DNA from: a virus
Direction: 5' to 3' (one strand)
IMG/VR virus record: IMGVR_UViG_3300022602_000115
Span: 1 to 56,938 of that record
DNA: 56,938 nt
Shown here: in pieces, positions 9,030 through 42,271 of the stretch
Numbering within the stretch: position 1 is the first letter of the stretch
How the letters are laid out: the number at the start of each line of letters is the position of its first letter
The notes under the pieces: generated by a model
Told to the model about the DNA's origin: nothing
What the model saw: the letters and a program-made list of their open reading frames with translations, nothing else
Database searches by the model: none
Translations under genes and position numbers: made by a program

Positions 9030-9030
9030 T

Positions 9031-11523: not shown

Positions 11524-11524
11524 A

Positions 11525-15235: not shown

Positions 15236-15929
15236 ATATTGATTCCTCTAATGTTTGTACTTTATCTAAACCTCTTTTATATCTAGCAATGAATCTATCG
15301 CTTCCTGTCTTAGAATTGTAAGCATCATGGCCATGAACAAATGGTTTTGGGTATAGGTTAGCATCCAAAGAAAAACCATTACATTGCATCAAGAGATCTA
15401 TTGCTGGTCTGTTTGGCATAAGCTGAAGACCATTGAATGGTTTATTCACATCATTATGGTTTATCATATTGCCAGCGGTAAGAGCAATTGAGGGTGTATC
15501 TCCATTTATAAGATGGGTTTCAATTATAACATAATCCCTTGCTTTGGAGCATATCTTTTGAATAAACCCAATCAGATCGAAGGTGCCATGAATAACTCCA
15601 GCGGCAATTACGATGTCGTAACTGTCAGAAGTGTTACCTAGGAATTTGTAAATTTGAGCATTATCATACTGCTCTAGAAGATGCTTCGCTTTCTCTTTGT
15701 ATTCCTGTTGGATCTCAACACCATCATACAGATATGCACCATTCTCCATACTCCATTTACCCATTGCGCCTAGTGCACAACCAACATCGAGAATTGATTT
15801 ATTTTTGATCAATTCTGGTGGCAGCATAACTTCGCATCTATTGGTAAGAGATTCGCTTGTTACTGTTACAGTTGCTCGATCCTTTCTTGGATCAAGGGAT
15901 ACAAATTCAGGATACTGATCAAACCACAT
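15222..15929 (-). CDS. class I methyltransferase, possibly CmoB-like
   Basis: 235 aa. SAM loop ILDVGCALGAMG (46-57), acidic VEI (71-73). Downstream SYDIVIAAGVIHGT, VIIETHLINGD (134-144) and MPNRPAIDLLMQCNGFS run parallel to CmoB (which has GVLYH, ETLVIDGD, PS...L..WL..CGF as I remember). Shorter than CmoB (about 320 aa), lacking its N-terminal part. Other possibility: a small-molecule methyltransferase of the island. Overlaps the CmoA-like gene by 14 nt. Confidence 0.65.
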   Translation of the reverse strand: MWFDQYPEFVSLDPRKDRATVTVTSESLTNRCEVMLPPELIKNKSILDVGCALGAMGKWSMENGAYLYDGVEIQQEYKEKAKHLLEQYDNAQIYKFLGNTSDSYDIVIAAGVIHGTFDLIGFIQKICSKARDYVIIETHLINGDTPSIALTAGNMINHNDVNKPFNGLQLMPNRPAIDLLMQCNGFSLDANLYPKPFVHGHDAYNSKTGSDRFIARYKRGLDKVQTLEESIYVGV

Positions 15930-16576
15930 TATCTTTTCTCAACATAAAAATTTTGAACTATTTTAGTTCCCTGTTTCTTTGTCATTTTAGAACTATTGAT
16001 AGTTCCAGCTTCCCATGAAACCATTCTGTTGAATACATTTGATATAACATCAGTGACATTAAACTGATTATGATACTCATTAAACAATTTTGTATATTCT
16101 TCAATATTAATTTTACCAGCGTTGTATGCGTTCTTTGGCGCCAAATAATTATTCAATGCTCTATCAAATAGTTCTTGTTGATTCCAATTCAACTCGGGTT
16201 TCGGTTCATAGAATGTTAATCCAGTTTCTTTGTCAGCATCATAAGAAAGAAATATCTGACCACACAATACCAAGTTAAAATCTTCAACTCTTAAATCACA
16301 TTGATTGTTATTTCTACCATCTATATGAGCACAGTATCGATTCAACTGCTCTATTGGATTATATCCATAAGAGGTAAAATATGTAGTGAGATTTAAATTG
16401 CTCGGTAAGTTATGTAATAGAAATATATTCTCTTTGAACTGCGAAAATAACAATGGATCTAGTTGTTCAAGTGGTAGACTTTTAAATCCAACACCACAAC
16501 CTGATCCATTAAAATTAGAATTGATAAGATTGAAGACACGCGAGGTATCTTCATAGAAATGATCAATTATTTTCAT
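15929..16576 (-). CDS. DUF6445/2OG-like protein, possibly inactive
   Basis: 215 aa with AHIDGRNNNQCD (H84, D86) and LVLCGQIFLSYDADKETGLTFYEP, matching the DUF6445 branch of 2OG-like proteins. The distal His region reads VFNRMVSWEAGTINSS, with no His where the third iron ligand is expected, so iron binding may be lost. Start ATG overlaps the upstream stop. Confidence 0.6.
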   Translation of the reverse strand: MKIIDHFYEDTSRVFNLINSNFNGSGCGVGFKSLPLEQLDPLLFSQFKENIFLLHNLPSNLNLTTYFTSYGYNPIEQLNRYCAHIDGRNNNQCDLRVEDFNLVLCGQIFLSYDADKETGLTFYEPKPELNWNQQELFDRALNNYLAPKNAYNAGKINIEEYTKLFNEYHNQFNVTDVISNVFNRMVSWEAGTINSSKMTKKQGTKIVQNFYVEKR

Positions 16577-17154
16577 ACTATAAAATGATAATTTAGAACG
16601 GCTCTTACATCTTTTTTAGGTTTACCTACAGCATGATAGACGCTACCATCAAATATAATCAATCTACCTTTTTTGGGAGTTACTGTCGTTTCAACATCCA
16701 ACAAACCATTCATTACATTTACATGGGTAGTATTACTTGTTGTTTGTTTAAAAATATATGTATCACCATCTGAATCATTTACATAATAAACACCAACTCT
16801 ATATGGAGAATTTCTATACCCATCAATATGCGGTACTCCATATAGTTTATCCTTTTCTGTCAAAACAGGCAACTGTAATTGAGCACGTATTTGCAGAATA
16901 GTTTTTGCTATATTTTTTACAGGGGTTGAATATAATTCAATGTTCGGATCTGATTCTGGTTGGTTCTGAGGGTCCATCATCAGATTAGTAAATGACATCA
17001 AAGAATTTTTCTGAGTTTCATTTACTTCTGGATTAGTACCATCATAAAACACAGTACGTGCAAAAATCCACTTAGTATTCTTACTAAAAATGGATTTTTC
17101 TATTTCGTCCTGTGTTTTCTTATCAACTACATCATCAATAATAACTAGAGACAT
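16573..17154 (-). CDS. 2OG-Fe(II) oxygenase, NDSDGDT subgroup
   Basis: 193 aa; H109-x-D111 (PHIDGYR), YYVNDSDGDTYIFKQ, VTPKKGRLIIFDGSVYHAVG with H174, R184. Complete facial triad and 2OG-binding Arg. Confidence 0.9.
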   Translation of the reverse strand: MSLVIIDDVVDKKTQDEIEKSIFSKNTKWIFARTVFYDGTNPEVNETQKNSLMSFTNLMMDPQNQPESDPNIELYSTPVKNIAKTILQIRAQLQLPVLTEKDKLYGVPHIDGYRNSPYRVGVYYVNDSDGDTYIFKQTTSNTTHVNVMNGLLDVETTVTPKKGRLIIFDGSVYHAVGKPKKDVRAVLNYHFIV

Positions 17155-17891
17155 TATGCTTCCAAATCTCCAGATGCTGTTCTACCAATATAATGGTCGT
17201 AATCTTTTAGAACCTGAACAAAATCATCATGCGTTCTATGGAGGTTTGAAATAATAGCAGTTCTTGTTCCATAGTGCATACCCATATCAACATTAGATGG
17301 TTCAACAAAGTGTAACAAATATCCTGGATGGATAATCATTAGCCCCTGTTCTACACGTACCTTCTTGAATGCTGTAAATTGATTAGTCCAATTTACACCA
17401 CCACGTGGGTCAACCATCATAAGGTTTCCTGGGTTTCTTTCATCAGCAGTAACATAAAGCATACCAACACCAAGTGTGTTACCATGTTTATGTGGGGTAA
17501 TTCTATACACATTATCTCCAGTCGTGTATCTGAAATATCCTTTTGATGCTGTAAATTTAGGAAGAGGCATTTCTGCCAATGGTCTATAATATTTCTCCAT
17601 CAACTCAAGCATCTTCAGCTTAACCTGAACCAATGAATCTGGCAGATCTGGTAACGACCAAATGTCTGTGTGATTAAAAGTTCCTGGAGCACCTGGTTTT
17701 AGAAGATACGCCATGTCTTCTCTTAATTTATCAATGAATTCATCAGTAAATGGTTTTGCCATAACAACTGGTGTTGGCCATAACATGTGACATTGCTCTT
17801 CACCATCAGCTGGCTTTTCTAGAATGGTAATGCTACCTTCTTTTCTTAGAGCAGTATCATCATCGTTGTCAGTGAACATCCTCATTTCCAT
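17154..17891 (-). CDS. 2OG-Fe(II) oxygenase-like (HxH...H type)
   Basis: 245 aa; TPHKHGNTLGVGMLYV (H134, H136), NLMMVDPRGGVNW, EQGLMIIHPGYLLHFVEP (H194), R210. Same Oxy_5-type branch as the 8409 gene, with an extra acidic N-terminal region. May start at M1 or M4. Confidence 0.8.
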   Translation of the reverse strand: MEMRMFTDNDDDTALRKEGSITILEKPADGEEQCHMLWPTPVVMAKPFTDEFIDKLREDMAYLLKPGAPGTFNHTDIWSLPDLPDSLVQVKLKMLELMEKYYRPLAEMPLPKFTASKGYFRYTTGDNVYRITPHKHGNTLGVGMLYVTADERNPGNLMMVDPRGGVNWTNQFTAFKKVRVEQGLMIIHPGYLLHFVEPSNVDMGMHYGTRTAIISNLHRTHDDFVQVLKDYDHYIGRTASGDLEA

Positions 17892-17902
17892 TTTCGTTTT
17901 CC

Positions 17903-18520
17903 TTATAGTGGTAACCAGTGATTAGTATTTAGATGAAATCCAGCATCGATTAAACTTTGTGCTGGAATTATATCAAATGCCAATGTGATTCTTGGGTAAT
18001 TATTTTTCCAGTCAGAAGATCTATGTAAATCTCCATTGCTTGGACCCATTACCAATAGATTGTTTTTACTCTGAACGTCAATGTCTCCATTAACATTCGG
18101 TATTCTATATGTAGTGTGCGACTCTGGCTCCGTTTCTAAACAGAAGAAGCCATGCCATGTTTTGTATTTGGATTCCCAGTGTCCATGCCAATTAATGTAC
18201 TCACCTGTATGGTAGTAATTAATCCAACACTGAATGAAATAATCGCCATATGGTTCTTCCGAATTCATATGGCGATTAGCTGCGTGAAAGGTATCTCGTA
18301 CCTCTGTGTATAGTTTATGTACCTCTGGTAGAGGATACATAAAGAGATTGTATTTTGAATATAATTCTAATTTTAATTGCGACTGGCCATTGAAATCTTC
18401 GCCTTTGGCAAATCTATCTTTAACATATTCGTATATTGTATTTACGGATTTGTTTAATGTAGGTAGATCAAGATCTAACTGCCTAGTGTACAAATAATTT
18501 TCTATTAAATTTAAGTGCAT
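17903..18520 (-). CDS. 2OG-Fe(II) oxygenase-like, NWHxH subgroup
   Basis: ATG at 18520 preferred over TTG at 18529. 205 aa with INWHGHWES (H112, H114), WHGFFCLETEPESHTTYRIPN, NGDLHRSSDW (H166), R177 and a C-terminal NTNHWLPL. Paralogue of the 40169 gene, which ends NNWIPI. First oxygenase after the tRNA region in the direction of transcription. Confidence 0.8.
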   Translation of the reverse strand: MHLNLIENYLYTRQLDLDLPTLNKSVNTIYEYVKDRFAKGEDFNGQSQLKLELYSKYNLFMYPLPEVHKLYTEVRDTFHAANRHMNSEEPYGDYFIQCWINYYHTGEYINWHGHWESKYKTWHGFFCLETEPESHTTYRIPNVNGDIDVQSKNNLLVMGPSNGDLHRSSDWKNNYPRITLAFDIIPAQSLIDAGFHLNTNHWLPL

Positions 18521-18533
18521 AATTAACAATCAA

Positions 18534-18609
18534 TGGAGCGGGATAAGAGATTCGAACTCTCGACCTCGACGTTGGCAACGTTGTGCTCTACCAGCTGAGC
18601 TAATCCCGC
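18534..18609 (-). tRNA. tRNA-Gly(GCC)
   Basis: Full cloverleaf with 7-bp acceptor GCGGGAT/ATCCCGC, anticodon loop TTGCCAA, T loop TTCGAAT, CCA encoded. Last tRNA of the array. Confidence 0.95.
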
Positions 18610-18621
18610 ATTATAATGTAT

Positions 18622-19095
18622 TTATGCTGCCATGTATGACTTATATCTATCTGCTGCGTATGAAGCAGCGAATGCTTTTGGTTTAACCATAGGGATGACA
18701 TTACACATACCCTTGATGTAACCAGTAGCTTCGTTAATGACGCATGAAGAACCATGAATTTCATTTGGGTTAATGTCCAAGTGAACTTCTACTTCACGAT
18801 CTTCAAGTACATCATGTAACTTCATGTACAAGTCAGCAATTTTATAAACTTCATTCATCAGGCGCATACGTGGACGATTCTTGGTTTTATCCCAATCACG
18901 TTCTCGTTGCACTTCACCAAAAATCTTGCATCCGTTGTTTCCATTAATATGAACAACAACAACCAAGATGTAATCTGCGTACCAGTCTTTACCGATCAAA
19001 TGTCTTTCAGAATCTCCACCGATGTAGATTTTAGATTCTGGACTTTGCGCCATGATGAATTCTCTTACTTCATCAATGTCAATTTGCTTACGCAT
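18622..19095 (-). CDS. RNase H-like protein of the YkuK family
   Basis: The frame opens with GTG inside the upstream tRNA; ATG at 19095 has GAGG 7 nt upstream (MRKQIDIDEVREF). 157 aa: YIGGDSER, KIFGEVQRERDW, RLMNEVYKIADLY, VEVHLDINPNEIHGSS, then MVKPKAFAASYAADRYKS, the pattern of the predicted RNase H-like (DUF458, B. subtilis YkuK) family. Its position between tRNA-Gly genes suggests a role in RNA processing (inference). Confidence 0.7.
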   Translation of the reverse strand: MRKQIDIDEVREFIMAQSPESKIYIGGDSERHLIGKDWYADYILVVVVHINGNNGCKIFGEVQRERDWDKTKNRPRMRLMNEVYKIADLYMKLHDVLEDREVEVHLDINPNEIHGSSCVINEATGYIKGMCNVIPMVKPKAFAASYAADRYKSYMAA

Positions 19096-19112
19096 ATCAT
19101 ACCTCATTTCTA

Positions 19113-19186
19113 TGGAGCGGGACACGAGAATCGAACTCGTAACTGAAGTTTGGAAGACTGCCGTTTTACCACTAAACTAGTCCCGC
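19113..19186 (-). tRNA. tRNA-Gly(TCC)
   Basis: Acceptor GCGGGAC, loop CTTCCAA, T loop TTCGATT, encoded CCA. Pairs with Gly(GCC) to cover the glycine box. Confidence 0.95.
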
Positions 19187-19192
19187 ATTATT

Positions 19193-19266
19193 TGGCTACC
19201 CAGCAGGGATTTGAACCCCGACCAACAGTTTTGGAGACTGGTATGCTGCCGTTACACTACTGAGTA
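19193..19266 (-). tRNA. tRNA-Trp(CCA)
   Basis: Acceptor TACTCAG/CTGGGTA, anticodon loop CTCCAAA, T loop TTCAAAT, encoded CCA. Confidence 0.9.
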
Positions 19267-19272
19267 ATATTA

Positions 19273-19473
19273 TTAAGCGTAAGTATTTTGTGTTAGATCT
19301 TCGCTAATTGTATGTATCAATTCTGCATTCTCACCATAAACCTTAGCATTATGACCAGTACCACGTGTCATATGTTTCGCATGCTCAATTGCTTCTTCAA
19401 GAGTATTATGTGTTGATGTTGCAATTTTTAACATGCCATTGACCCAACGATGAATCTTTACTGTATGTGACAT
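19273..19473 (-). CDS. hypothetical protein, 66 aa
   Basis: Small soluble protein (VKIHRWVNGMLKIATSTHNT, LEEAIEHAKHM) of a type common in phages as a single-domain hypothetical. Directly follows the glycosyltransferase-like gene. Confidence 0.65.
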   Translation of the reverse strand: MSHTVKIHRWVNGMLKIATSTHNTLEEAIEHAKHMTRGTGHNAKVYGENAELIHTISEDLTQNTYA

Positions 19474-20520
19474 TTATTTTCCTTTAAAATAGTTTTCCCA
19501 AATTGCTTTGGTTTTATTTGTATATCTTTTCATGGCAAATTGATTTAAATATGTATTCAATCTAGGATATTCATACGCATTCTTTAAACCCTCAACGATT
19601 CCTGCGCTTTCAGTTGGATCGCAACGACCAACAACCTGCCATGGTATTTCTTTACTACCAATCAAAGGAACTCCCTGAGAAATTAAATCAGCACCAACGA
19701 TGTTGAATGTTTCAGAGAAGTTACATTGCATACCTAAATCCATTTGAGCACACAGTTCCAGGAACTGTTCTCTTGGTGTCCAATTATGATTGATCAACTC
19801 ATGACCTTCATCATACACATGCTGAAATAAACCCTTAAGATTATGTACAGCTGGTCCACCATTCATTTCTATTCTACCTGCATTCACGTGAAAACGCAAC
19901 TTTTTATTGATTGAGTTTGCGAACTCAATTGCAGCAATTGCCTGAACCAAGTGATTTTTTAATGGACGAATCGCACCGAAACATCCAATGTCAATATACT
20001 CTTTTGTTTTGTCTAAAGTTTTGCGTTTAAACACTTGAGGATAGTAGTTCGGTAGATAGATTACTTTATAATCCCATATTCTCCATGGCGATTTTGCTTT
20101 CATAATCTCTTTAACTTCGCGCATCATACGTGGAGCATTGCAAGCTACATAAACATTATCCATCATTGCATACTCAGGAATCCAATCCATTGCTGGACCT
20201 TCACCTGACATAAAAGGCATCTCTGAATGTAAACGAACAATCCATTTAACATTCGGATGTAATTTCTTTAATACTTGGAATTTTTCTGGGACAACCCAGA
20301 GTGCTTCAATGATTACGTGAGTTGGTTTGTAATTAGAAACTTCTCTATCGATATGATTGTTATCTGGAACAACAACCATCTTTGATTCAATGCCAGCGTC
20401 AAGTAGCATGTTATCCATAAACTTTGCTGAGTTGTATAGACCTGTGCTTAGACCTATCGTATTATCTCTTTCAACATGGTAATCATCTTTTCGTTTTAGA
20501 ACGAACAGAACCTTTGACAT
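19474..20520 (-). CDS. glycosyltransferase-like protein, GT4 type, 348 aa
   Basis: Two Rossmann halves: N-terminal NTIGLSTGLYNSAKF and PTHVIIEALWV; C-terminal GCFGAIRPLKNHLVQAIAAI and LGMQCNFSETFNIVGADLIS with the ETFN..xAD pattern that binds the sugar nucleotide in GT-B GT4 enzymes. Likely glycosylates DNA, virion or envelope components; acceptor not visible. Lies inside the tRNA array, flanked by tRNA-Trp and tRNA-Thr. Confidence 0.75.
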   Translation of the reverse strand: MSKVLFVLKRKDDYHVERDNTIGLSTGLYNSAKFMDNMLLDAGIESKMVVVPDNNHIDREVSNYKPTHVIIEALWVVPEKFQVLKKLHPNVKWIVRLHSEMPFMSGEGPAMDWIPEYAMMDNVYVACNAPRMMREVKEIMKAKSPWRIWDYKVIYLPNYYPQVFKRKTLDKTKEYIDIGCFGAIRPLKNHLVQAIAAIEFANSINKKLRFHVNAGRIEMNGGPAVHNLKGLFQHVYDEGHELINHNWTPREQFLELCAQMDLGMQCNFSETFNIVGADLISQGVPLIGSKEIPWQVVGRCDPTESAGIVEGLKNAYEYPRLNTYLNQFAMKRYTNKTKAIWENYFKGK

Positions 20521-20588
20521 TTTATTTAATCTTAATAGTTAACATACAACTATTTAGCGTCGTTGTAATTTTTATAGTTTTATTAAAA

Positions 20589-20664
20589 TGGTGCCCTTTT
20601 ACGGATTCGAACCGCAGACCTCCTCATTACTAATGAGATGCTCTACCAACTGAGCTAAAAGGGC
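20589..20664 (-). tRNA. tRNA-Thr(AGT)
   Basis: Stem TCTCA/TGAGG around loop TTAGTAA gives anticodon AGT. Acceptor GCCCTTT/AAAGGGC, T loop TTCGAAT, CCA encoded. A34 in a threonine tRNA is unusual for bacteria; a second, standard tRNA-Thr(TGT) is at 24977. Confidence 0.9.
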
Positions 20665-20681
20665 ATTAATCGTAAATTAAA

Positions 20682-20870
20682 TTATTTGGTGGCGAAGGAG
20701 AGATCCGAGCTCCCAACCTTGTCCGTATGAAGAACCTGCTCTACCAGTTGAGCTACATCGCCATTTAATTTTTTGTCTAATACAAATTCACCAGGAACAC
20801 AACTATACATTCTTTGTTTGTATGGTTTGTTTGATAATTTGTACAATATTTTAAAATCATCATCTTCCAT
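20682..20870 (-). CDS. possible 62-aa protein overlapping a tRNA gene
   Basis: ATG at 20870 has a strong AAAGGAAAT RBS; the frame (MEDDDFKILYKLSNKPYKQRM) continues through the whole tRNA-Met gene and stops just after its CCA. Either a short protein whose real end was lost by tRNA insertion, or a fortuitous frame. Confidence 0.35.
   Translation of the reverse strand: MEDDDFKILYKLSNKPYKQRMYSCVPGEFVLDKKLNGDVAQLVEQVLHTDKVGSSDLSFATK
20687..20762 (-). tRNA. tRNA with anticodon CAT, divergent (Met or Ile2)
   Basis: Acceptor GGCGATG/CTTCGCC has one T-T mismatch; loop TTCATAC; T loop CTCGGAT departs from the usual TTCGAAT. CCA encoded. Could be an Ile(CAU) species needing lysidine, an elongator Met, or a decaying copy. 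Confidence 0.7.
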
Positions 20871-20880
20871 ATATTTCCTT

Positions 20881-20957
20881 TGGTGCCCCAAGAGAGACTC
20901 GAACTCTCAAAATTTGGCTTCTAAGACCAACACGTATACCAATTCCGTCATCGGGGC
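20881..20957 (-). tRNA. tRNA-Leu(TAG), short variable region
   Basis: Acceptor GCCCCGA/TTGGGGC, loop CTTAGAA, T arm GAGAG TTCGAGT CTCTC. The variable region is only about 5 nt, unlike the long arm usual in Leu tRNAs. Confidence 0.85.
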
Positions 20958-21313
20958 ATATTGATTAGAGTACTGTTGTGATTTTAAGAGCATTCGCTCA
21001 CTAAATGTGCATTTAAGATTACCTTCGGCATCAGTAATCATCTCCGTATGACTGGAATTGGACACTTAGCGATGTTCTTCCCTAACAGTTGGGATTGCCT
21101 TTTCTTTTGCATTCACTCTAATCAATAGGAACTCTCCCTAAAGAATTCCACTTGAGTCTTTTGATATTGGACGACAGTCCTCAGGTCTGAACATCCGTAA
21201 GCGAAGTCCACCATCACTCGCTTATTTTTAACGATGGGACTTGCACCCACCACGACAAAGTGAGCCACGATAAACTAGGGATGTTTACCGTAAGCCTATC
21301 GGGACTAATTTTT
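20958..21313 (-). ncRNA. ORF-free structured segment between tRNA-Met and tRNA-Leu
   Basis: About 355 bases with no credible ORF. A 13-bp perfect inverted repeat (20959-20971 and 21115-21127) closes a 170-nt domain that ends exactly before the 5' end of tRNA-Leu. Inside on the minus strand are smaller hairpins such as GATTAC...GTAATC, TAAATG-CA-CATTTA and GAGCGAATGCTC. The upstream half has GGACTGTCGTCC and a T-arm-like GTGGGTGCAAGTCCCAT. Interpreted as a structured RNA of unknown class. Confidence 0.5.
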
Positions 21314-21389
21314 TGGTTGCGGAGTGCTGGAATCGAACCAACGACCTGGAGCTTATGAGACTCCTGAGATACCACTTCTCCAACCCGCA
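21314..21389 (-). tRNA. tRNA-Met(CAT), initiator-like
   Basis: Loop CTCATAA, T loop TTCGATT, ends GCAACCA. D stem has A11-U24 and position 1-72 is a weak U-A pair, features that resemble initiator tRNA, but the anticodon stem lacks three consecutive G-C pairs. Confidence 0.85.
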
Positions 21390-21390
21390 A

Positions 21391-21756
21391 TTAAACCTTT
21401 GACCACTCTTGGATATGACTTTTGTCAATCTTTCTTTGGTCACCTTTACCATATCTTGTTACCATGGTAACAATTCTTGGCACTATGTACAACTGAAACA
21501 TTATTTCATTATTACGTTTCTTCTCAACGTAATTATAAGGTTTACCAGCTAGATATGCTCTTGCCAGTTCAGTCGCACGACTTTCATTTCTAACATTCCA
21601 CTTACGATGATTAACAAGATCATTCAGTTTCCAGATTAGACTAATGTCAGTACCTTTGGTGTATTTAATTTGTTTCTTTAACTTTTTCTCTTCACGCTTG
21701 ATTATAGATGGTTCAAGTGCTAGATGTTTTGCTTTAATTTTTAATTCGATATTCAT
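21391..21756 (-). CDS. conserved phage protein of tRNA regions, 121 aa
   Basis: Starts MNIELKIKAKHLALEP with GGAG upstream. Basic helical protein with LIWKLNDLVNHRKWNVRNESRATELARAYLAGKPY, a layout I know from hypothetical proteins of several large phages. Possibly RNA binding; unproven. Stop lies 2 nt from tRNA-Met. Confidence 0.7.
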   Translation of the reverse strand: MNIELKIKAKHLALEPSIIKREEKKLKKQIKYTKGTDISLIWKLNDLVNHRKWNVRNESRATELARAYLAGKPYNYVEKKRNNEIMFQLYIVPRIVTMVTRYGKGDQRKIDKSHIQEWSKV

Positions 21757-21863
21757 TTAATTCTCCTTGATTGTTTAAAATAAAATTCCATACAAACAAG
21801 AAGATTACGGAGGGCGAATCTACAAACGCATGTCTTTCATGGCATTCCCTTTCATTAAATTTT

Positions 21864-21940
21864 TGGTGCGTCAGACAGGAATCGAACCTGCTACAAATCG
21901 TTTTAGAGACGACCACCCCTACCTTTTGGGTTCCTGACGC
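21864..21940 (-). tRNA. suppressor tRNA, anticodon CTA (reads UAG)
   Basis: 77 nt, full cloverleaf: acceptor GCGTCAG/CTGACGC, D stem ACCC/GGGT, anticodon stem GTCGT/ACGAT around loop CTCTAAA (T33, anticodon C34-T35-A36, A37), T arm GCAGG TTCGATT CCTGT, discriminator A, CCA encoded. No other register gives a stem with T33. Decodes the amber codon. The amino acid carried cannot be read from the sequence. Confidence 0.9.
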
Positions 21941-22119
21941 AGATTTTCTTTCTGTTCCTCATCATTATATATAAACGCTGGAAAGAATTTCCATCCCCAG
22001 CTTTTCCAATATTTGTGTATAATGTTATTGATTGCTACAGCAGTGACAACAATAATAATAAAAGCCATTGATGTCAAAATTGTTCCAACTAAAAATACTG
22101 CTGCTTTATCAATATCCAT
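21919..22119 (-). CDS. small membrane protein ending inside the suppressor tRNA, 66 aa
   Basis: ATG at 22119 with AAGGAAG RBS. N-terminal transmembrane helix (AVFLVGTILTSMAFIIIVVT), then a charged tail. Its TAG stop (21919-21921) lies in the D-loop region of the amber suppressor tRNA gene, so the two genes overlap by 22 nt. In-frame TGG and further codons follow, so suppression would extend the protein. Confidence 0.6.
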   Translation of the reverse strand: MDIDKAAVFLVGTILTSMAFIIIVVTAVAINNIIHKYWKSWGWKFFPAFIYNDEEQKENLRQEPKR

Positions 22120-22211
22120 TTTTACTTCCTTATTACAAAATAGTCGAGACACAGTGGTTGGTGGGTCACTGTTGATTATAATTACGCACCCCAATGCGAA
22201 TTTCTCATTAC

Positions 22212-22286
22212 TGGCTCCAGAGGCAGGGATCGAACCTACGACCAATTGATTAACAGTCAACTGCACTACCGCTGTGCTACTCTGGA
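22212..22286 (-). tRNA. tRNA-Asn(GTT)
   Basis: Acceptor TCCAGAG/CTCTGGA, loop CTGTTAA, T loop TTCGATC, CCA encoded. Confidence 0.95.
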
Positions 22287-22384
22287 ATAAATTTCTGGTG
22301 TGTATTTCTTACACGGCTTCCAACCTTCCGTGACGTTACGGTTGCTAACTTACCTGCAGGACGCGATAGCAACTATCTTACATT
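22287..22384 (-). ncRNA. small structured spacer with tRNA-like CCA end
   Basis: On the minus strand: 7-bp stem GTTGCTA/TAGCAAC enclosing CCTGCAGG, then CACGG/CCGTG hairpin, then TACACACCA at the end 13 nt before tRNA-Asn. No ORF. Looks like a degenerate or non-canonical tRNA-like RNA. Confidence 0.35.
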
Positions 22385-22459
22385 TGGCGACTCGTAGGAG
22401 AATCGAACTCCTGTATCCACTTAGACAGAGTGGCATAATGACCATTATATTAACGAGCC
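22385..22459 (-). tRNA. tRNA-Asp(GTC)
   Basis: Acceptor GGCTCGT/ACGAGTC, stem CCACT/AGTGG, loop CTGTCTA, CCA encoded. Confidence 0.95.
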
Positions 22460-22467
22460 GAAAACTT

Positions 22468-22552
22468 TGGTGGAGATGGTAAGATTCGAACCTACTAGTC
22501 CTAGGAAACAGATTTACAGTCTGCCGCACCCCTCCAACTGTGCCGCATCTCC
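22468..22552 (-). tRNA. tRNA-Tyr(GTA)
   Basis: 85 nt with long variable arm, acceptor GGAGATG, loop CTGTAAA, T loop TTCGAAT, CCA encoded. Confidence 0.95.
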
Positions 22553-22989
22553 ATTGTTTTTGTTTAGTGCTATCATGCCGATTTGTCAACAATGTAGCTA
22601 GCACTGACAAGCGAATAGCAGTTATATCAGGATCCGTTCCTCGCACAGTTGGACCCGAATAGTCATAGCGTCCTATGACGATACCTTGATAACACTAAAC
22701 AAAAACAATTATGGTAGGAAAGGTCGCCCAATCCTTTCTTTACTACGAGACTTGTTTATAACCTCTACCATATTAAATTATACTGGGGTATTTAGCAACA
22801 ACTCTCACCCGAGAGATAGCCACGTAGTCGTCCTACGATTGGTCGCATTATACATTACAATCCAATAATATCCAGCGTCCTCCTGATATAATCTCAAGGT
22901 TTCGTGTAAACTTAAAGTGGTCAGGACGGCTCCTGATTAACACCAAATTAAGCTACCTACTGGTATTGGCAACCCAATACAATTTAATA
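22553..22989 (-). ncRNA. large inverted-repeat-clamped RNA between tRNA-Glu and tRNA-Tyr
   Basis: 437 bases without a convincing ORF. Repeats: 17 bp perfect (22553-22569 with 22693-22709) ending at the 5' end of tRNA-Tyr; 8 bp (22710-22717 with 22765-22772) around an inner GAAAGG/CCTTTC stem; 13 bp (22767-22779 with 22981-22993) whose 5' strand on the transcript is the ACCA end of tRNA-Glu. The last two share ACCATA (22767-22772), so they compete or switch. Class unknown; large ornate phage RNAs such as GOLLD or ROOL are known beside tRNAs. Confidence 0.6.
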
Positions 22990-23064
22990 TGGTACTGCGT
23001 ACGAGAGTCGAACTCGTCTTCTCAGGTTGAAAACCTGATGTCCTAACCGATAGACGAACGCAGT
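22990..23064 (-). tRNA. tRNA-Glu(TTC)
   Basis: Acceptor ACTGCGT/ACGCAGT, loop TTTTCAA, T loop TTCGACT, CCA encoded. Its ACCA 3' end begins a 13-bp inverted repeat completed 200 nt downstream. A GGTGGT/ACCACC hairpin (23067-23105) lies just upstream. Confidence 0.9.
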
Positions 23065-23165
23065 AAAGGTGGTGGTTTTGAAAAATCTGGAGACACCACC
23101 AACCAGTTTACTTATTACCTCATGCTTCCGACTTCACGTAAAGACTTAGAGAGGATTTTCAGAAT

Positions 23166-23243
23166 TTATTCTTTTGGAGCACCTGGAGCTTTACATCCCT
23201 TTACACCATTAAAATGCCATTTCCTGCAAAATACACATTCCAT
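23166..23243 (-). CDS. Cys-containing microprotein, 25 aa
   Basis: ATG at 23243 with AAGGA about 8 nt upstream, directly after two tandem promoters. MECVFCRKWHFNGVKGCK has a CxxC and a third Cys, a zinc-knuckle-like spacing. Short, but RBS and promoters support expression. Confidence 0.5.
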   Translation of the reverse strand: MECVFCRKWHFNGVKGCKAPGAPKE

Positions 23244-23272
23244 AACAAATCCTTTTTAACTTCAGAACCTTA

Positions 23273-23301
23273 ATTATATCTTAGTTTCAAATTAATGTCA
23301 A
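23273..23301 (-). promoter_or_regulatory. sigma70 promoter, second of a tandem pair
   Basis: TTGACA, 17 nt, TATAAT. Its start region (TTAAGGTTCTGAAGTT) is repeated in the promoter 88 bp upstream, so the pair looks like a duplication. Drives the distal tRNA unit. Confidence 0.8.
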
Positions 23302-23361
23302 GCATTATTTTCAACTATTTTAAAATTATTTTCAAGACTCCTTATCAACTTCAGAACCTTA

Positions 23362-23389
23362 ATTATACTCTATTTGGTATAAATGTCAA
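23362..23389 (-). promoter_or_regulatory. sigma70 promoter, first of a tandem pair
   Basis: TTGACA, 16 nt, TATAAT, directly after the terminator at 23399. Confidence 0.8.
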
Positions 23390-23398
23390 GCAATTTAA

Positions 23399-23428
23399 AT
23401 AATAACCTTACCAGTGTAAGGGTTATTT
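23399..23428 (-). terminator. hairpin ending the proximal tRNA unit
   Basis: AATAACC(C)TTA...TAAGGTTATT on the minus strand, beginning 1 nt after the CCA of tRNA-Cys. Same family as the other CCCTA/TAGGG hairpins. Confidence 0.6.
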
Positions 23429-23504
23429 TGGAGTACGTGATAGGAATCGAACCTACATAAAACAGGGTTGCAAACTGTTCCCTAGCCATTCGGGTCACAC
23501 GTAC
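23429..23504 (-). tRNA. tRNA-Cys(GCA)
   Basis: Acceptor GTACGTG/CACGTAC, loop TTGCAAC with one mismatch at the top of the stem, CCA encoded. Confidence 0.9.
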
Positions 23505-23509
23505 ATATT

Positions 23510-23588
23510 TGGTACCTCGAGTGAGATTCGAACTCACAGAATCTTCTCCTTTTGAGAGAGACGACTTTACCAATTTGTCCATCGAGGC
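23510..23588 (-). tRNA. tRNA-Leu(CAA)
   Basis: Acceptor GCCTCGA, stem TCTCT/GGAGA, loop CTCAAAA, T loop TTCGAAT, CCA encoded; short variable region. Confidence 0.9.
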
Positions 23589-23589
23589 A

Positions 23590-23664
23590 TGGTGGGCTCA
23601 CCGAGATTCGAACTCGAACCTTATCAATTATGAGTTGACGGCACTACCTTTATGCTATAAGCCC
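23590..23664 (-). tRNA. tRNA-Met(CAT), elongator-like
   Basis: Acceptor GGGCTTA/TGAGCCC, stem GTCAA/TTGAT, loop CTCATAA, CCA encoded. Confidence 0.9.
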
Positions 23665-23670
23665 AACAAC

Positions 23671-23745
23671 TGGGGCGGCAAGAAGGAATCGAACCCTCAT
23701 TCGTAGGGTAGAAGCCTACTGTATTGTCCATTATACGATCGCCGC
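23671..23745 (-). tRNA. tRNA-Arg(TCT)
   Basis: Acceptor GCGGCGA/TTGCCGC, stem GTAGG/CCTAC, loop CTTCTAC, CCA encoded. Confidence 0.95.
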
Positions 23746-23751
23746 AAAAAC

Positions 23752-23837
23752 TGGTACGAGTGGAGGGACTTGAACCCTCAATCCATTACTGGCGACAGAT
23801 TTTAAGTCTGTAGTGTATACCATTCCACCACACTCGC
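23752..23837 (-). tRNA. tRNA-Leu(TAA)
   Basis: 86 nt with variable arm, acceptor GCGAGTG/CACTCGT, stem ACAGA/TCTGT, loop CTTAAAA, CCA encoded. Confidence 0.95.
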
Positions 23838-23839
23838 AT

Positions 23840-23929
23840 TGGCAGTGAGTCAGGGAGTCGAACCCTGTGACCTGCTTTCACAAGTCTACGGATTAGCAAT
23901 CCGCTGCATTACCATCCTGCCCACTCACT
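23840..23929 (-). tRNA. tRNA-Ser(GCT)
   Basis: 90 nt with long variable arm, acceptor AGTGAGT/ACTCACT, stem GCGGA/TCCGT, loop TTGCTAA. Its 5' end overlaps the TAG stop of the phosphoesterase gene by 2 nt. Confidence 0.95.
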
Positions 23930-24482
23930 AATAATTGCCATTGGTAAATCCTACTGTACCACCCTCATCTTTAATCTTTTGGATTACTTGCTCAAACAAG
24001 ATGGGTCTGAAGTCTGTTTGTTCAACGCAGACAGAGTGGTACCTCGGATCAATTTTACCATTCAACATAACACGATTACTATGCAAGTGACCATGAATGT
24101 TAACACCAAATCTACCCAACGAATCGCTATGAATAGGTATGTGGCTTAAGATCATTCCATTCATCACGTGGTATGCACGTAACTCACGAAAGTGTTCACG
24201 GTAGTCGTCATCTTTAAAGATGTCATGGTTACCACGAATTAAAACCTTATCGCCATTTAACCTACGCATGATTCCCAATGCTTTGCGATTGATAACAACA
24301 TCACCAAGATGATAAACTTTATCTGTTGGCTTTACTGTTTCGTTCCACATTTTAACCATGGCTTCATCCATTTCTTCGGCATTATCCCATGGTCTTAATT
24401 TTGTCACACCATCGTCACGAGTGAACCTGCATACACCAGCATGACCGAAGTGCGTATCACTTACTAAAAATACACTTGGCAT
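23928..24482 (-). CDS. calcineurin-like metallophosphoesterase, 184 aa
   Basis: ATG at 24482 (GGAG 7 nt upstream) chosen over TTG at 24488. Motifs: DTHFGH, HLGDV, RGNHD, SHIP and HGHLH, the full metallophosphatase metal-site set. Phosphodiesterase or phosphatase; within a tRNA array an RNA end or 2',3'-cyclic phosphate substrate is attractive but unproven. Ends TAG TGA, tandem stops, where the TAG overlaps tRNA-Ser. Own promoter at 24510. Confidence 0.85.
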   Translation of the reverse strand: MPSVFLVSDTHFGHAGVCRFTRDDGVTKLRPWDNAEEMDEAMVKMWNETVKPTDKVYHLGDVVINRKALGIMRRLNGDKVLIRGNHDIFKDDDYREHFRELRAYHVMNGMILSHIPIHSDSLGRFGVNIHGHLHSNRVMLNGKIDPRYHSVCVEQTDFRPILFEQVIQKIKDEGGTVGFTNGNY

Positions 24483-24509
24483 ATACAACTCCTTTTCAAT
24501 TTAATCATT

Positions 24510-24538
24510 ATTATACCTTACTTCTTAATCAAAGTAAA
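24510..24538 (-). promoter_or_regulatory. sigma70-type promoter for the phosphoesterase
   Basis: TTTACT, 17 nt, TATAAT, in the gap after tRNA-Ser(TGA). Confidence 0.8.
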
Positions 24539-24548
24539 GCATTATTTT

Positions 24549-24642
24549 TGGCGGAGAGCAGAGGAGTCGAACCCCATCCACATTTCTGCAGAACCCAGTT
24601 TTCAAGGCTGGTCGGGGAACCAACTCCCCTGCATTACTCTCC
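24549..24642 (-). tRNA. tRNA-Ser(TGA)
   Basis: 94 nt, long variable arm, acceptor GGAGAGT/GCTCTCC, loop CTTGAAA, CCA encoded. Confidence 0.95.
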
Positions 24643-24647
24643 ATATT

Positions 24648-24723
24648 TGGTACCCAATAGAGGAATCGAACCTCTACCTCTGCGTTCGTAGCACAGTATG
24701 ATCATCCATTTCACCAATCGGGC
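24648..24723 (-). tRNA. tRNA-Arg(ACG)
   Basis: Acceptor GCCCGAT/ATTGGGT, stem CTGTG/CGCAG, loop CTACGAA, CCA encoded. A34 would need a TadA-type deaminase for inosine. Confidence 0.95.
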
Positions 24724-24729
24724 ATAACT

Positions 24730-24803
24730 TGGTACCTCGTGACAGAATCGAACTGCCGTATCCCACTTGTAAGGAGGGTGTTTTACCATTCAACTAACGA
24801 GGC
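24730..24803 (-). tRNA. tRNA-Val(TAC)
   Basis: Acceptor GCCTCGT/ACGAGGT, loop CTTACAA with one stem mismatch, CCA encoded. Confidence 0.9.
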
Positions 24804-24809
24804 AAAATT

Positions 24810-24884
24810 TGGTGGACCGTAAGAGAATCGAACTCTTACCTCTGACGTGCAAAGCCAGCGTGCTCCCATTATCACTAACAGCCC
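24810..24884 (-). tRNA. tRNA-Ala(TGC)
   Basis: Acceptor GGGCTGT/ACGGTCC, stem CTGGC/GTCAG, loop TTTGCAC, CCA encoded. Confidence 0.95.
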
Positions 24885-24891
24885 AAAACAT

Positions 24892-24968
<77 letters not shown>

Positions 24969-24976
24969 ATAAAAAC

Positions 24977-25050
24977 TGGTGCTCCGCGACAGAATCGAAC
25001 TGCCGTCTTCGGATTACAAAACCGACATAATGCCATTATACTAGCAGAGC
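24977..25050 (-). tRNA. tRNA-Thr(TGT)
   Basis: Acceptor GCTCTGC/GCGGAGC, stem TCGGT/TCCGA, loop TTTGTAA, CCA encoded. Confidence 0.95.
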
Positions 25051-25053
25051 AAT

Positions 25054-25127
25054 TGGTTCCTTCGACAAGAATTGAACTTGTATCTATCGGTTATCAGCCG
25101 ATTGCTCTACCACTGAGCTACGAAGGA
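25054..25127 (-). tRNA. tRNA-Ile(GAT)
   Basis: Acceptor TCCTTCG/CGAAGGA, stem ATCGG/CCGAT, loop CTGATAA, CCA encoded. Confidence 0.95.
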
Positions 25128-25136
25128 ATAAAACTT

Positions 25137-25212
25137 TGGTGCAACCTGTAGGAATCGAACCTACTTCAATGGCTCTTCAGACCACCGCTATGACCACATC
25201 AGCTAAAGTTGC
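25137..25212 (-). tRNA. tRNA-Phe(GAA)
   Basis: Acceptor GCAACTT/AGGTTGC, loop CTGAAGA, T arm GTAGG/CCTAC, CCA encoded. Confidence 0.9.
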
Positions 25213-25214
25213 AT

Positions 25215-25290
25215 TGGGGTATTCTATGAGGATCGAACTCATACTATCTCGGTCACAGCGAGAGGTGCAGACCACTACACTAAGAACACC
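25215..25290 (-). tRNA. tRNA-His(GTG)
   Basis: Loop CTGTGAC; has the extra G at -1 opposite discriminator C73, the hallmark of histidine tRNA. CCA encoded. Confidence 0.95.
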
Positions 25291-25294
25291 ACTG

Positions 25295-25414
25295 ACCATA
25301 TAGAAACACACTCGGTGCTGATCAGGCACTTACAGGAATTGAACCTGCCACTCCGGAGTCCAGAGCTGTATCCAACAAACCAATGCGCTTGGTCTGAATG
25401 TGTTTTTATATGGT
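25295..25414 (-). repeat. clamp repeat unit 3 (inverted repeat)
   Basis: Strands 25295-25310 and 25399-25414, 16 bp with one mismatch; loop contains a T-arm-like element and TCTGG-ACT-CCGGA stem. Confidence 0.8.
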
Positions 25415-25550
25415 GTAGTAATTGGGTATCGAACCCAACTAGTCGTTTGTTTTACAAACAGGCGATATCATTTCCTGCCGCCATATGCCCCTCGGGTTTG
25501 CAATCCTGCTACGCATACGGTCAAACAACTTGTCGACCATGACTTACCAC
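25411..25550 (-). ncRNA. tRNA-like element with extra arms
   Basis: 140 nt closed by GTGGTAA/TTACTAC followed by A-CCA, with T arm TTGGG TTCGATA CCCAA. Between are five or so hairpins (TGGTC/GACCG, TATGC/GCATA, GGCG/CGCC, TGTTT/AAACG) instead of two. The TGTTT-GTAAAAC-AAACG loop could mimic an anticodon arm but gives no normal anticodon. May be an interrupted tRNA, a mimic, or a domain of the larger RNA. Confidence 0.45.
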
Positions 25551-25625
25551 CATATAGAAACACACTAGACGAGGCGACCTCGTGGCCACAAGTTCCTGCT
25601 TATCTCTAATGTGTTTTTATATGGT
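25549..25625 (-). repeat. clamp repeat unit 2 (inverted repeat)
   Basis: Strands 25549-25564 and 25610-25625, 16 bp with one mismatch; loop holds GTGGCCAC and CGAGG/CCTCG stems. Confidence 0.8.
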
Positions 25626-25698
25626 GTTGGATATGTGCATTTATCTACTGTCCAACACAATAGGTCATTTCGTAGCACATTACGCTATGATATTTACT

Positions 25699-25776
25699 AC
25701 CATATAGAAACACACTAACCTTGAAGAAGCCAGGTATAAATCTAGCAACGAATCAGCCAGTATGTTTTTATATGGT
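25699..25776 (-). repeat. clamp repeat unit 1 (inverted repeat)
   Basis: Strands 25699-25714 and 25761-25776; the 5' strand on the transcript overlaps the A-CCA of tRNA-Lys(TTT). Confidence 0.8.
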
Positions 25777-25846
25777 AGGGGCACAGAGAATCGAACTCTG
25801 ATTAATAGGTTAAAAGCCTACTACTTTGCCGTTAAGTTATACCCCC
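25773..25846 (-). tRNA. tRNA-Lys(TTT)
   Basis: Acceptor GGGGGTA/TGCCCCT, stem GTAGG/CCTAT, loop CTTTTAA, CCA encoded. Confidence 0.95.
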
Positions 25847-25850
25847 GAAT

Positions 25851-25926
25851 TGGTCCACTCAGTGAGATTCGAACTCACACCTCATTGATTAAGAGTCAAG
25901 TGCGCTACCATTAACGCTACGAGTGG
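25851..25926 (-). tRNA. tRNA-Lys(CTT)
   Basis: Acceptor CCACTCG/TGAGTGG, stem TTGA/TCAA, loop CTCTTAA, T loop TTCGAAT, CCA encoded. Confidence 0.95.
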
Positions 25927-26215
25927 GTTGTCGTAATTAATTTTATTTTACGTGCCAACCCAAGACCAATACGGGATCTTGAGCGACACTAGAGTTTACC
26001 TCGCTTCATGTCATTCTCCTGTTAAATTAAAAAAAGATTGGTTGCGATGTTGAGTACCTTACTGGCCAACGCTCAAGTTCATCCAGTCGCTTCTAGGTCA
26101 TAATCTGCGAGTAATTAATTCGCTTCATATCATCACTACCAAACAGAAATGCAATGCCCCACAACCATAGCAGATCATTACCAGCGGACTGCGATTTACG
26201 CAATGCATTTCTGTT
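25927..26215 (-). ncRNA. structured spacer with 15-bp clamp after tRNA-Gln
   Basis: 289 bases, no ORF. A perfect 15-bp inverted repeat (26139-26153 with 26204-26218) whose first strand on the transcript is the CCA end of tRNA-Gln plus AACAGAAATGCA. Farther down a direct repeat GTAATTAATT occurs at about 25935 and 26111, and an A/T-rich GTTAAATTAAAAAA element at 26022. Confidence 0.5.
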
Positions 26216-26289
26216 TGGCACCCGAGATAAGAATCGAACTTATACTAACAGAGTCAAAGTCTGTTGTGCTACCACTACACCACTCGGGA
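26216..26289 (-). tRNA. tRNA-Gln(TTG)
   Basis: First tRNA of the array. Loop CTTTGAC, acceptor TCCCGAG/CTCGGGT with a U-U at 1-72, T loop TTCGATT, CCA encoded. Confidence 0.9.
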
Positions 26290-26984: not shown

Positions 26985-27013
26985 ATTATACTACATCTAT
27001 TTATAAATGTCAA
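26985..27013 (-). promoter_or_regulatory. sigma70 promoter; also contains TATAAATA
   Basis: TTGACA, 17 nt, TATAAT. The spacer contains TATAAATA, the T4 late-promoter octamer, so it might be used early and late. The -35 overlaps the stop of the halogenase gene. Confidence 0.75.
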
Positions 27014-28548
27014 GTTATTTCTGTTCTACCTTTTGTTCCATATGTTGCATAAAATGCCTTCGCCCAACCTTCTGTTGTGTAGCAGGTGTCCATCATTTTC
27101 TTTTTAAATGCTTCTTTTTCTGGAATAATTTTATTCTCATACACATAAATCGCATCTTGAGAGTTCAAATTATAAAGTCTATCTCTAATTTTATCTTTAT
27201 CGAATAGATGTAGAGCCTGTCCAACTGTCAGGAAACTGCCAGCTGAGTAAGCTGAGTAGAGATTGTATTCTCCAAGGATACCATTCCCCCACATATCAAC
27301 ATAATCTTTAACACGATCAGTCCAAGTCGAACGATCTTTTAGTTTTAACCAGTAAGAACTGTCAGTTCGTTTACCTCTGTAATGCAGATTTATAAAATCA
27401 ATCACACCTGTAGTTTGACGAAGCATCTCTTCGTTGTATAATTTCTTTTCTGCAACTCCAGTTTTATTGTATGGATCCCAGTACAAAGAAAGATTAACAA
27501 TACTATGAACAGCAACACCAAGACCATTAGACTCAAGTGGTTCTGCAAATCCAGTACTTATACCAACACCAATGACATTGTTTTTCCAAAATTCAGATGC
27601 CAAGTCTGGCTTATATGTAAACGATGCGATTGGATCAATTTTAATGTTAAATCTTTTTTCAGCTTCTTCAAGAGCCTGATCAGCAGTTATTTCTGTATTG
27701 TCGTAGATATATCCATTTCCGCTTCTATTTCGTATATTGATGTTCCAAGACCATCCATACTTCATAGCAGTTAGTTCAGTGTATGATTTATACTCAACCT
27801 CTTTACCCCACCAACCAAGAACTGATGAAGCAGGAAACTGTTGTGAGTAATCAATATATTTTACACCAAGAGCTTCTTTCAACAACAGTTTAGCAAAACC
27901 AGAACAATCAAAAAACCAATCTCCTTCAATAGAAGTGGCATCATCAAATATCAATGATAAAATATCACCAGTATCTCCATCATATGTATGTTTTACAAAT
28001 TTCTTTTCAAGTAACTTTACGCCTCGCACTAAACCAATCTTCTTAAGATAAGCAGCATTCGCTCTGCTATCGAAATGATACATTGGCATAATATACGCAT
28101 CATATCCTCTCTTGTCAGATGTAACATGAGGGATCATGTTGTTTTCTAAAAGACAATTCCAGTAATATGAATCGGATACGCTAATACCTTTGTCAAGAGT
28201 TATAAGATCATACAATTGATGTGTTATTGGAGCAGATTCTGCAATCTGTTTCTGTCTCTTATTTGTATCGATGACAGAATGTGTGAAAGTATGACCAAGA
28301 TCATACCAATCAACAAACTTTCCACCAAGTTTTGGCATTGCGTTTGTGTTGATAGCCCATTGAAACAAATCAATATCTAACTCTTCGAGCAAATTATTAA
28401 CAGCAAAAGAACCAGACTCTCCTGCAATAATTGGTGGTTTACTTGGATCTTCGACAACAGTTATATCAAGATTTTTCCATTTCTTTTTAAGAAACAAAGC
28501 CGTTAACCAACCAGCAGTTCCGCCACCAAGAATAACAATCTTTTTCAT
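27010..28548 (-). CDS. flavin-dependent tryptophan-halogenase family protein, 512 aa
   Basis: FAD loop ILGGGTAGW (6-14), GGKFVDW with K77 at the place of the catalytic Lys of PrnA (K79), WSWNI (266-270) as the WxWxIP signature with Ile but no Pro, and GFAEPLESNG (333-342) carrying the PrnA E346 equivalent. With Lys and Glu kept, chemistry may be retained, although phage family members have no proven substrate. Homologues occur in T4-like cyanophages. Coupled by overlap to dCMP deaminase and an uncharacterised partner. Confidence 0.85.
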   Translation of the reverse strand: MKKIVILGGGTAGWLTALFLKKKWKNLDITVVEDPSKPPIIAGESGSFAVNNLLEELDIDLFQWAINTNAMPKLGGKFVDWYDLGHTFTHSVIDTNKRQKQIAESAPITHQLYDLITLDKGISVSDSYYWNCLLENNMIPHVTSDKRGYDAYIMPMYHFDSRANAAYLKKIGLVRGVKLLEKKFVKHTYDGDTGDILSLIFDDATSIEGDWFFDCSGFAKLLLKEALGVKYIDYSQQFPASSVLGWWGKEVEYKSYTELTAMKYGWSWNINIRNRSGNGYIYDNTEITADQALEEAEKRFNIKIDPIASFTYKPDLASEFWKNNVIGVGISTGFAEPLESNGLGVAVHSIVNLSLYWDPYNKTGVAEKKLYNEEMLRQTTGVIDFINLHYRGKRTDSSYWLKLKDRSTWTDRVKDYVDMWGNGILGEYNLYSAYSAGSFLTVGQALHLFDKDKIRDRLYNLNSQDAIYVYENKIIPEKEAFKKKMMDTCYTTEGWAKAFYATYGTKGRTEIT

Positions 28549-42269: not shown

Positions 42270-42271
42270 AA

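Follow-up and report, generated by a model that had tools for sequence, protein, structure and literature searches.

What lies between two neighbouring tRNA genes of a viral tRNA island, and why it should fold into long stems, is the question raised by the IMG/VR virus record IMGVR_UViG_3300022602_000115 (56,938 bases; this whole stretch, as analysed, is referred to as the window). The window contains 29 tRNA genes (ARAGORN, Rfam), every one of them on the minus strand, which span positions 18534-26289. When the RNA is read along the minus strand, tRNA-Glu(UUC) (22990-23064; identified by ARAGORN and Rfam, and included in the helix drawing) is followed by a 437-nt spacer and then by tRNA-Tyr(GUA) (22468-22552; ARAGORN and Rfam). 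The original prediction, made from the letters of the DNA, had described partly exclusive stems in this spacer and had proposed that they form a switch or a processing scaffold. The spacer is found to consist of two complex folded RNAs, modules A and B, with a small module C between them, and these RNAs are previously undescribed.

The stem on the ACCA end of tRNA-Glu, originally given as 13 bp, is present at its predicted place and is in fact an uninterrupted 22-bp helix (22994-22973 with 22787-22766, including two G.U pairs), which starts on the UACCA that forms the 3' end of the tRNA, such that the ACCA provides the opening base pairs. The 8-bp stem (22772-22765 with 22717-22710) is exactly as predicted, and the segment shared between these two stems is UAUGGUA (22772-22766). 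The stem at tRNA-Tyr, taken for a perfect one of 17 bp, was also called too short, being an uninterrupted 23-bp helix (22709-22687 with 22575-22553) with one G.U pair, which abuts the first base of tRNA-Tyr (22552). The longest stem, when G.U pairs are allowed, is thus 23 bp, as compared with a mean of 11.8 bp and a maximum of 17 bp in 300 dinucleotide shuffles, and the fold of the spacer has a z-score of -5.6, with an equally good fold in none of 100 shuffles. A point missing from the first reading is that each long stem closes an RNA domain of its own. Module A (22766-22994, minus strand as for all features of the spacer; 229 nt, including the UACCA of tRNA-Glu) is closed by the 22-bp helix, referred to as its P1, of which the 5' strand (22973-22994) holds the tRNA CCA and the 3' strand (22766-22787) ends in UAUGGUA. 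Module B (22553-22709; 157 nt) is closed by the 23-bp P1 (5' strand, 22687-22709; 3' strand, 22553-22575), of which the 3' strand lies immediately before tRNA-Tyr.

Are these domains peculiar to this virus? Among 80 relatives gathered via the neighbouring phosphoesterase gene, several have sequences alignable with the spacer, and the alignments show A and B to be modules that occur independently of each other. Pattern scans of IMG/VR find A in 63 contigs and B in at least 119 contigs, and the profile search (252 loci) yields 61 distinct sequences of A and 101 of B from uncultured phages. In large contigs, A and B each occur as a single copy; in tandem loci, they are frequently fused or almost fused. 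The carriers are T4-like, with the nearest cultured primase, that of the Methylophilales phage Melnitz (Kyanoviridae), being 47% identical. No match to A or B is found by blastn in 50,697 cultured-phage records; one 28-nt match to a Campylobacter phage is weak and taken as chance. In bacterial genomes, 14 pattern matches to B are seen, but nhmmer gives short matches around the search motif and no full-length B.

The structures of both modules are conserved when considering the aligned sequences (51 for A and 79 for B). For A, RNAalifold finds 44 pairs, 27 of them with compensatory changes, which are present in most of the P1 pairs. The named structure of A has 47 pairs, kept in 95.0% of cells, with double changes in 33 pairs (423 double-changed cells), as compared with 33-38% paired for slid partners. 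For B, RNAalifold finds 40 pairs (30 with compensatory changes), and 98.6% of the cells of the 42-pair named structure are paired, with 752 double-changed, against averages of 73.9% and 235 in shuffles and 33-43% paired for slid partners. Covariation was also assessed by our own simplified version of an R-scape-like test, in which substitutions are re-placed on the tree. This gives 18 significant pairs in B, all 18 canonical, and 12 in A, of which eight are canonical and lie in helices, one is a G.G/U-A exchange within P1, and the last three fall on adjacent columns of an insert that is variable. The original prediction had been staked on whether compensatory changes exist, and they are present in both modules. 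The G.U cells far exceed the A.C cells (258:33 in A and 179:11 in B), and selection therefore acts on the sense RNA.

The conservation extends beyond the closing helices. A hairpin with a GACG loop on a fully variable stem is common to A and B: in A it is CGUAG-GACGA-CUACG (22823-22837; alignment columns 217-221/227-231), with an invariant GACG loop and a covarying stem, and in B it is GUCAUAG-GACG-CUAUGAC (22662-22679; alignment columns 35-53), also with a conserved loop. Module B in addition contains a pseudoknot, formed between GCGA in a hairpin loop (22641-22644) and UCGC (22611-22614). This pair of strands is GCGA/UCGC in 61 of the 79 sequences and GCCG/CGGC in the other 18, so it is paired in 100% of them and never broken. 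The conserved loops of A and B suggest that these RNAs bind a protein or another RNA. A CsrA-type GGA motif in the loops was considered and dropped, because its first G is unconserved whereas GACG is conserved. An antisense action of B on a tRNA was also rejected: an 11-nt complementarity between 22653-22643 and the D arm of tRNA-Tyr is specific to the window, and relatives have none above the shuffled level.

Where the modules sit is equally regular. Among the distinct copies of A with an upstream tRNA, 56 of 59 overlap its CCA end; in 51 of these the tRNA is tRNA-Glu(UUC), and the others are Gln, Ile, Ser and Glu(CUC). Module B starts either directly after A or at the 3' end of a tRNA, which is in most cases Glu and otherwise Asp, Gly or Leu, and the next tRNA, which can be one of many different tRNAs, lies about 9-12 nt beyond the end of the B profile. 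In 38 Glu-linked relatives, the P1 of B starts on the tRNA 3' end, whereas in the window, B is preceded by C and not by a tRNA. Modules A and B are, in summary, conserved, covarying, strand-specific RNA structures found in many phages and placed exactly on tRNA CCA ends.

The anchoring on the CCA raises the question of whether A and B are the only such RNAs in these islands. When helices of at least 13 bp are considered, CCA-anchored helices are found in 89 of 119 gaps with A or B and in 59 of 824 other gaps, as compared with 0 and 1.2, respectively, in shuffles. A class was defined by a helix of at least 15 bp with its start precisely at the CCA of the upstream tRNA and with UGG at its end; A, with its P1 of 22 bp, belongs to it, and the search at this stricter length gives at least 239 further distinct elements that are neither A nor B, with about 130 interior clusters. 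The P1 pair CCATATaAAAACACATT / AGTGTGTTTcTATATGG is common to many elements with unrelated interiors, the A copy of locus L046 bears the class P1 CCATATTAAAACACATT, and the P1 of B represents a second type (CCATTTGTTT). Positions 4-17 of P1 are paired in 96-100% of cases, position 8 excepted, and 31 of the 47 interior clusters with multiple members occur behind more than one tRNA species. At least one element is present in 35 of 51 relatives with at least five tRNAs, these relatives having been gathered regardless of the RNA, yet via one neighbour gene. P1 is thus a common frame for many unrelated interiors, which are exchangeable cassettes. Another such element occurs in the window itself, after tRNA-Gln (26139-26218, minus strand), with a 17-position closing stem (CCAAACAGAAATGCATT/ATTGCATTTCTGTTTGG, one mismatch) and a 46-nt interior that is nearly identical in locus L007.

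Several observations on individual elements stand beside this. After A or tRNA-Glu, six loci (L026, L027, L207, L010, L019 and L106) have a module D that contains GUAAGC...GUAACUAUGU...AUAAACGGUA...AUAGCAAAUAGUGC, and two others (L007 and L139) have a module E of about 195 nt. At position 8 of the P1 of short elements, an A.C apposition is more frequent than any other (85 of 209 distinct stems) and may serve as a mark for processing or as a distortion of the helix. The interiors of some short elements (L166, L137, L150, L154, L004 and L242) contain the T-arm-like GGTTCGANNCC, as if parts of tRNAs had been captured between the P1 strands.

A frame of conserved inverted repeats around unrelated interiors, with the same interior behind different tRNAs and with insertion exactly after the CCA, could also be expected of DNA-level mobile elements. 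In that case, P1 would be a terminal inverted repeat, and the cassettes would move as miniature elements aimed at the 3' ends of tRNAs. Outside position 8, P1 shows, however, a strand-specific excess of G.U (237:13), which together with the P1 covariation shows selection on one RNA strand, and homologous recombination within a shared P1 would explain the exchange equally well, so that this explanation is most improbable.

It is less improbable, though still unlikely, that only the stems matter, with P1 acting in cis, either as a signal for processing or as an insulator that parts neighbouring tRNAs (a substrate of the RNase III type, as are the stems around rRNAs), and the interior being filler. 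P1 is indeed long, nearly perfect and common to elements with unrelated interiors. The CCA of the tRNA on one side is often part of it, and in 73 of 224 short elements its final GG is at the same time the start of the next tRNA, although GG ranks second in frequency among the tRNA starts of these loci. The interiors of the short elements are moreover hypervariable and weakly structured (mean fold z of -0.49 with mononucleotide shuffles), and with this average they are rejected as independently folded hairpins. Such a view does not account for the invariant unpaired residues, the pseudoknot and the conserved GACG loops of A and B; it also fits poorly with the free exchange of tRNA neighbours by B, with the copies that have no tRNA upstream, and with the fact that most tRNA gaps of the same islands are without such a stem. 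The same evidence bears on the processing scaffold of the original prediction, which is plausible and comes closer to the truth than a switch. It is incomplete, because a mere scaffold needs no conserved unpaired residues, pseudoknot or GACG-loop hairpins, and the stems belong to a larger class.

The pairing that had suggested a switch involves module C (22710-22772, minus strand), which is a small module of roughly 60 nt between A and B, also present in six other loci (L152, L155, L186, L118, L115 and L129). Its closing stem, UAUGGUAG/CUACCAUA, is the 8-bp stem, and it shares UAUGGUA with the P1 of A, the 5' strand of the C stem being the 3' strand of the A stem. A similar economy is seen where A is fused to the next module: UGGUAUUAG then has two roles at once, as the 3' strand in the A stem and as the 5' strand in that of the next module. 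As a regulatory switch, the UGGU would alternate between the upstream and downstream ACCA and so control the release of the tRNA-Glu 3' end. Both partners of the UGGU are available in the window, in L152, L155 and L186, and in the fused A-B, A-D and A-E arrangements, and the predicted occupancy flips on removal of the CCA. In the partition function of the window, UGGU pairs with the tRNA-Glu CCA with a probability of 1.00 as long as the tRNA is attached, but if the RNA starts after the CCA, its partner is the 3' end of module C, with a probability of 0.95; the same flip is predicted for L152 and L186. In 12 fused A-B loci, the mean pairing probabilities, 0.62 upstream versus 0.36 downstream, are near balance.

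Against a switch stands the complete formation of the A stem in the window while the tRNA is attached, and hence no equilibrium switch is predicted there. Where A lies directly before a tRNA (for example in L105, L108, L086 and L131), there is no competing downstream partner (0.01-0.04; 16 loci computed), and A is conserved nonetheless. In the controls run, substantial pairing (0.47-0.79) is also obtained with shuffled downstream sequence, so that the pairing on this side has only partial specificity, and a shared strand is simply to be expected if every module must have a P1. The alternative UGGU pairing of the original prediction is real, whereas switching as the core function is very unlikely. 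The alternative pairing, which is conditional and not universal, can be seen as a possible hand-off during maturation and not as the reason that these RNAs exist.

The comparison with known RNAs gives no family for these modules. When 22450-23100 is searched with 4227 Rfam models (cmscan to E = 10), only the tRNAs and two chance matches are found; the whole window at the gathering threshold gives tRNAs only, and for ten other loci the best 150 of 189 matches are all tRNA. A known family (GOLLD, ROOL, group I intron, tmRNA or any other Rfam RNA) is therefore rejected, no Rfam model matching the spacer. The pairing of UGGU with a tRNA end recalls the T-box riboswitch, in which the UGGN of the antiterminator pairs with the NCCA acceptor end of a tRNA. 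Here, however, UGGU pairs in cis, with the tRNA next to it, and this pairing forms the end of a long perfect helix, and no T-box match is found in the Rfam scans of the window or spacer. Long flanking helices also frame the rRNAs in their polycistronic transcript, where they are cut by RNase III; in the present system, the RNA within the frame is no rRNA, and the helix takes one of its strands from the 3' end of a tRNA.

Among phage RNAs, A and B resemble the rnaC and rnaD (species 1 and 2) RNAs of the T4 tRNA region in being encoded within a tRNA cluster. The roles of rnaC and rnaD are unknown (PMC3014915), and they are small stable late RNAs, detected by RNA-seq and Northern analysis (PMC9697503). 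The rnaD RNA starts 1 nt after tRNA-Arg; it differs in being without a long CCA-anchored stem and in its fold z of -0.65, and no CCA-anchored helix is found in the T4 region. Homology of A or B with these RNAs was rejected, as models R1 and R2 match nothing in NC_000866; the R2 model is nearly a sequence model, because it caught only a single hairpin of A. GOLLD and ROOL are elaborate, pseudoknotted RNAs of phages and prophages that often occur near tRNA islands and have no known function (PMC12286853). The window likewise encodes its RNAs at the tRNA island of a virus, but GOLLD and ROOL are far larger, GOLLD often exceeding 800 nt, and are not described as a CCA-anchored class or as exchangeable cassettes. 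No description of CCA-anchored cassettes was found in Rfam or in the literature searched, most subscription journals being outside that search.

Can such an element be found in a phage that is in culture? In eight cultured tRNA islands, a CCA-anchored helix occurs in one of 71 gaps, after tRNA-Val of the Vibrio phage Thalassa, and T4-like cultured tRNA islands were rejected as carriers because this is the sole helix. The interior of the Thalassa element is kept in 17 Vibrio phage records. In phage D260, tRNA-Val again provides the CCA on which the element sits, and the P1, of 20 bp and perfectly paired, is an unrelated one. The Pogseptimavirus copy has no CCA anchor. The core of this RNA has invariant interior blocks together with a P1 that is wholly different yet compensated, which is the same pattern as for A and B, and no Rfam family matches the Vibrio phage elements. 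As an observation in its own right, this is a conserved unannotated RNA of T5-like Vibrio phages (Thalassa, D260, PG07 and others), located at 6813-6947 (minus) in L388, 2948-3086 (plus) in L392 and about 2964-3080 (plus) in L391.

How the modules would be made is suggested by the region upstream of tRNA-Glu, which contains a sigma70 promoter, TTGACA-17-TATAAT (12/12; 23273-23301, minus strand), and a second one, TTGACA-16-TATAAT (12/12; 23362-23389, minus). A terminator-like stem (23406-23421, minus), found by consensus scan alone, lies upstream of both and sets the unit apart from tRNA-Cys. In the relatives, strict sigma70 promoters occur in the upstream gap at 1.52 per kb against a background of 0.067 per kb over the entire loci, an enrichment of about 23-fold. 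Such consensus promoters directly upstream make transcription of the unit likely. A 25-codon open reading frame, MECVFCRKWHFNGVKGCKAPGAPKE (23166-23243, minus), lies between the promoters and tRNA-Glu, and MECxxCxxWHF...-like peptides precede tRNA-Glu in relatives, possibly zinc-binding micropeptides.

The explanation that we favour, and consider probable, is that modules A, C and B are noncoding RNA genes, or cassettes, inside the tRNA transcript, which are exchangeable and are probably released by tRNA processing. Each module is framed by its long terminal helix P1, of which the 5' strand takes its start from the CCA of the tRNA upstream, or else from the end of the module that comes before, and the 3' strand ends in UGG(U) at or near the next tRNA. 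The strong early promoters would give a transcript headed by tRNA-Glu, P1 would form during transcription, and the processing of the tRNA 3' end to CCA together with RNase P cleavage at the next tRNA, possibly with RNase III cleavage within the 18-23-bp P1, would free the modules as stable RNAs. On departure of the tRNA, the UGGU would become free to pair with the next module, a hand-off that would be a consequence of the modular layout and not its main function. We infer a role in trans for A and B. Three points weigh against this explanation. All members are known from sequence alone. The short hypervariable interiors fold, on average, barely better than their shuffles, so some of them may not be functional RNAs. 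Finally, some copies of A and B have no adjacent upstream tRNA and, like the Pogseptimavirus copy without its CCA anchor, show that tRNA processing cannot be the only release route.

Other features of the window lie outside this unit. ARAGORN reports a 'tRNA-Pyl' (21864-21940, minus) with a CUA anticodon, which makes it a candidate amber suppressor tRNA; TAG is the stop codon in 3 of 55 ATG-started open reading frames of at least 120 codons. Many small genes at 8409-18529, 29793-32522 and 40169-42877 (minus) have translations that, judged by eye, resemble 2-oxoglutarate/Fe(II) oxygenases, and a tryptophan-halogenase-like protein (27010-28548), also judged by eye, adjoins such genes.

Phage tRNA arrays are usually read as supplements to translation or as a defence against immunity that cuts tRNAs, with no attention paid to the gaps between the genes. 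Here, these gaps contain conserved RNAs with pseudoknots, and CCA-framed cassettes that form a class. We propose tentatively, and with somewhat more doubt than confidence, that in the uncultured T4-like phages, as in some cultured Vibrio phages of the T5-like kind, the maturation of tRNAs serves as an excision machine that cuts out a large set of exchangeable noncoding RNA cassettes. Their borders would be set by a near-universal CCA helix, and their interiors would diversify fast, as expected of RNAs engaged in a conflict with the host, whether as decoys, as inhibitors or in the manner of antitoxins; A and B would be the two most conserved cargoes. The presence of the elements in cultured Vibrio phages makes the idea directly testable. 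Should the cassettes indeed be freed as stable RNAs, phage tRNA arrays would be noncoding-RNA operons too, and this could explain, by analogy, the rnaC and rnaD RNAs of T4.
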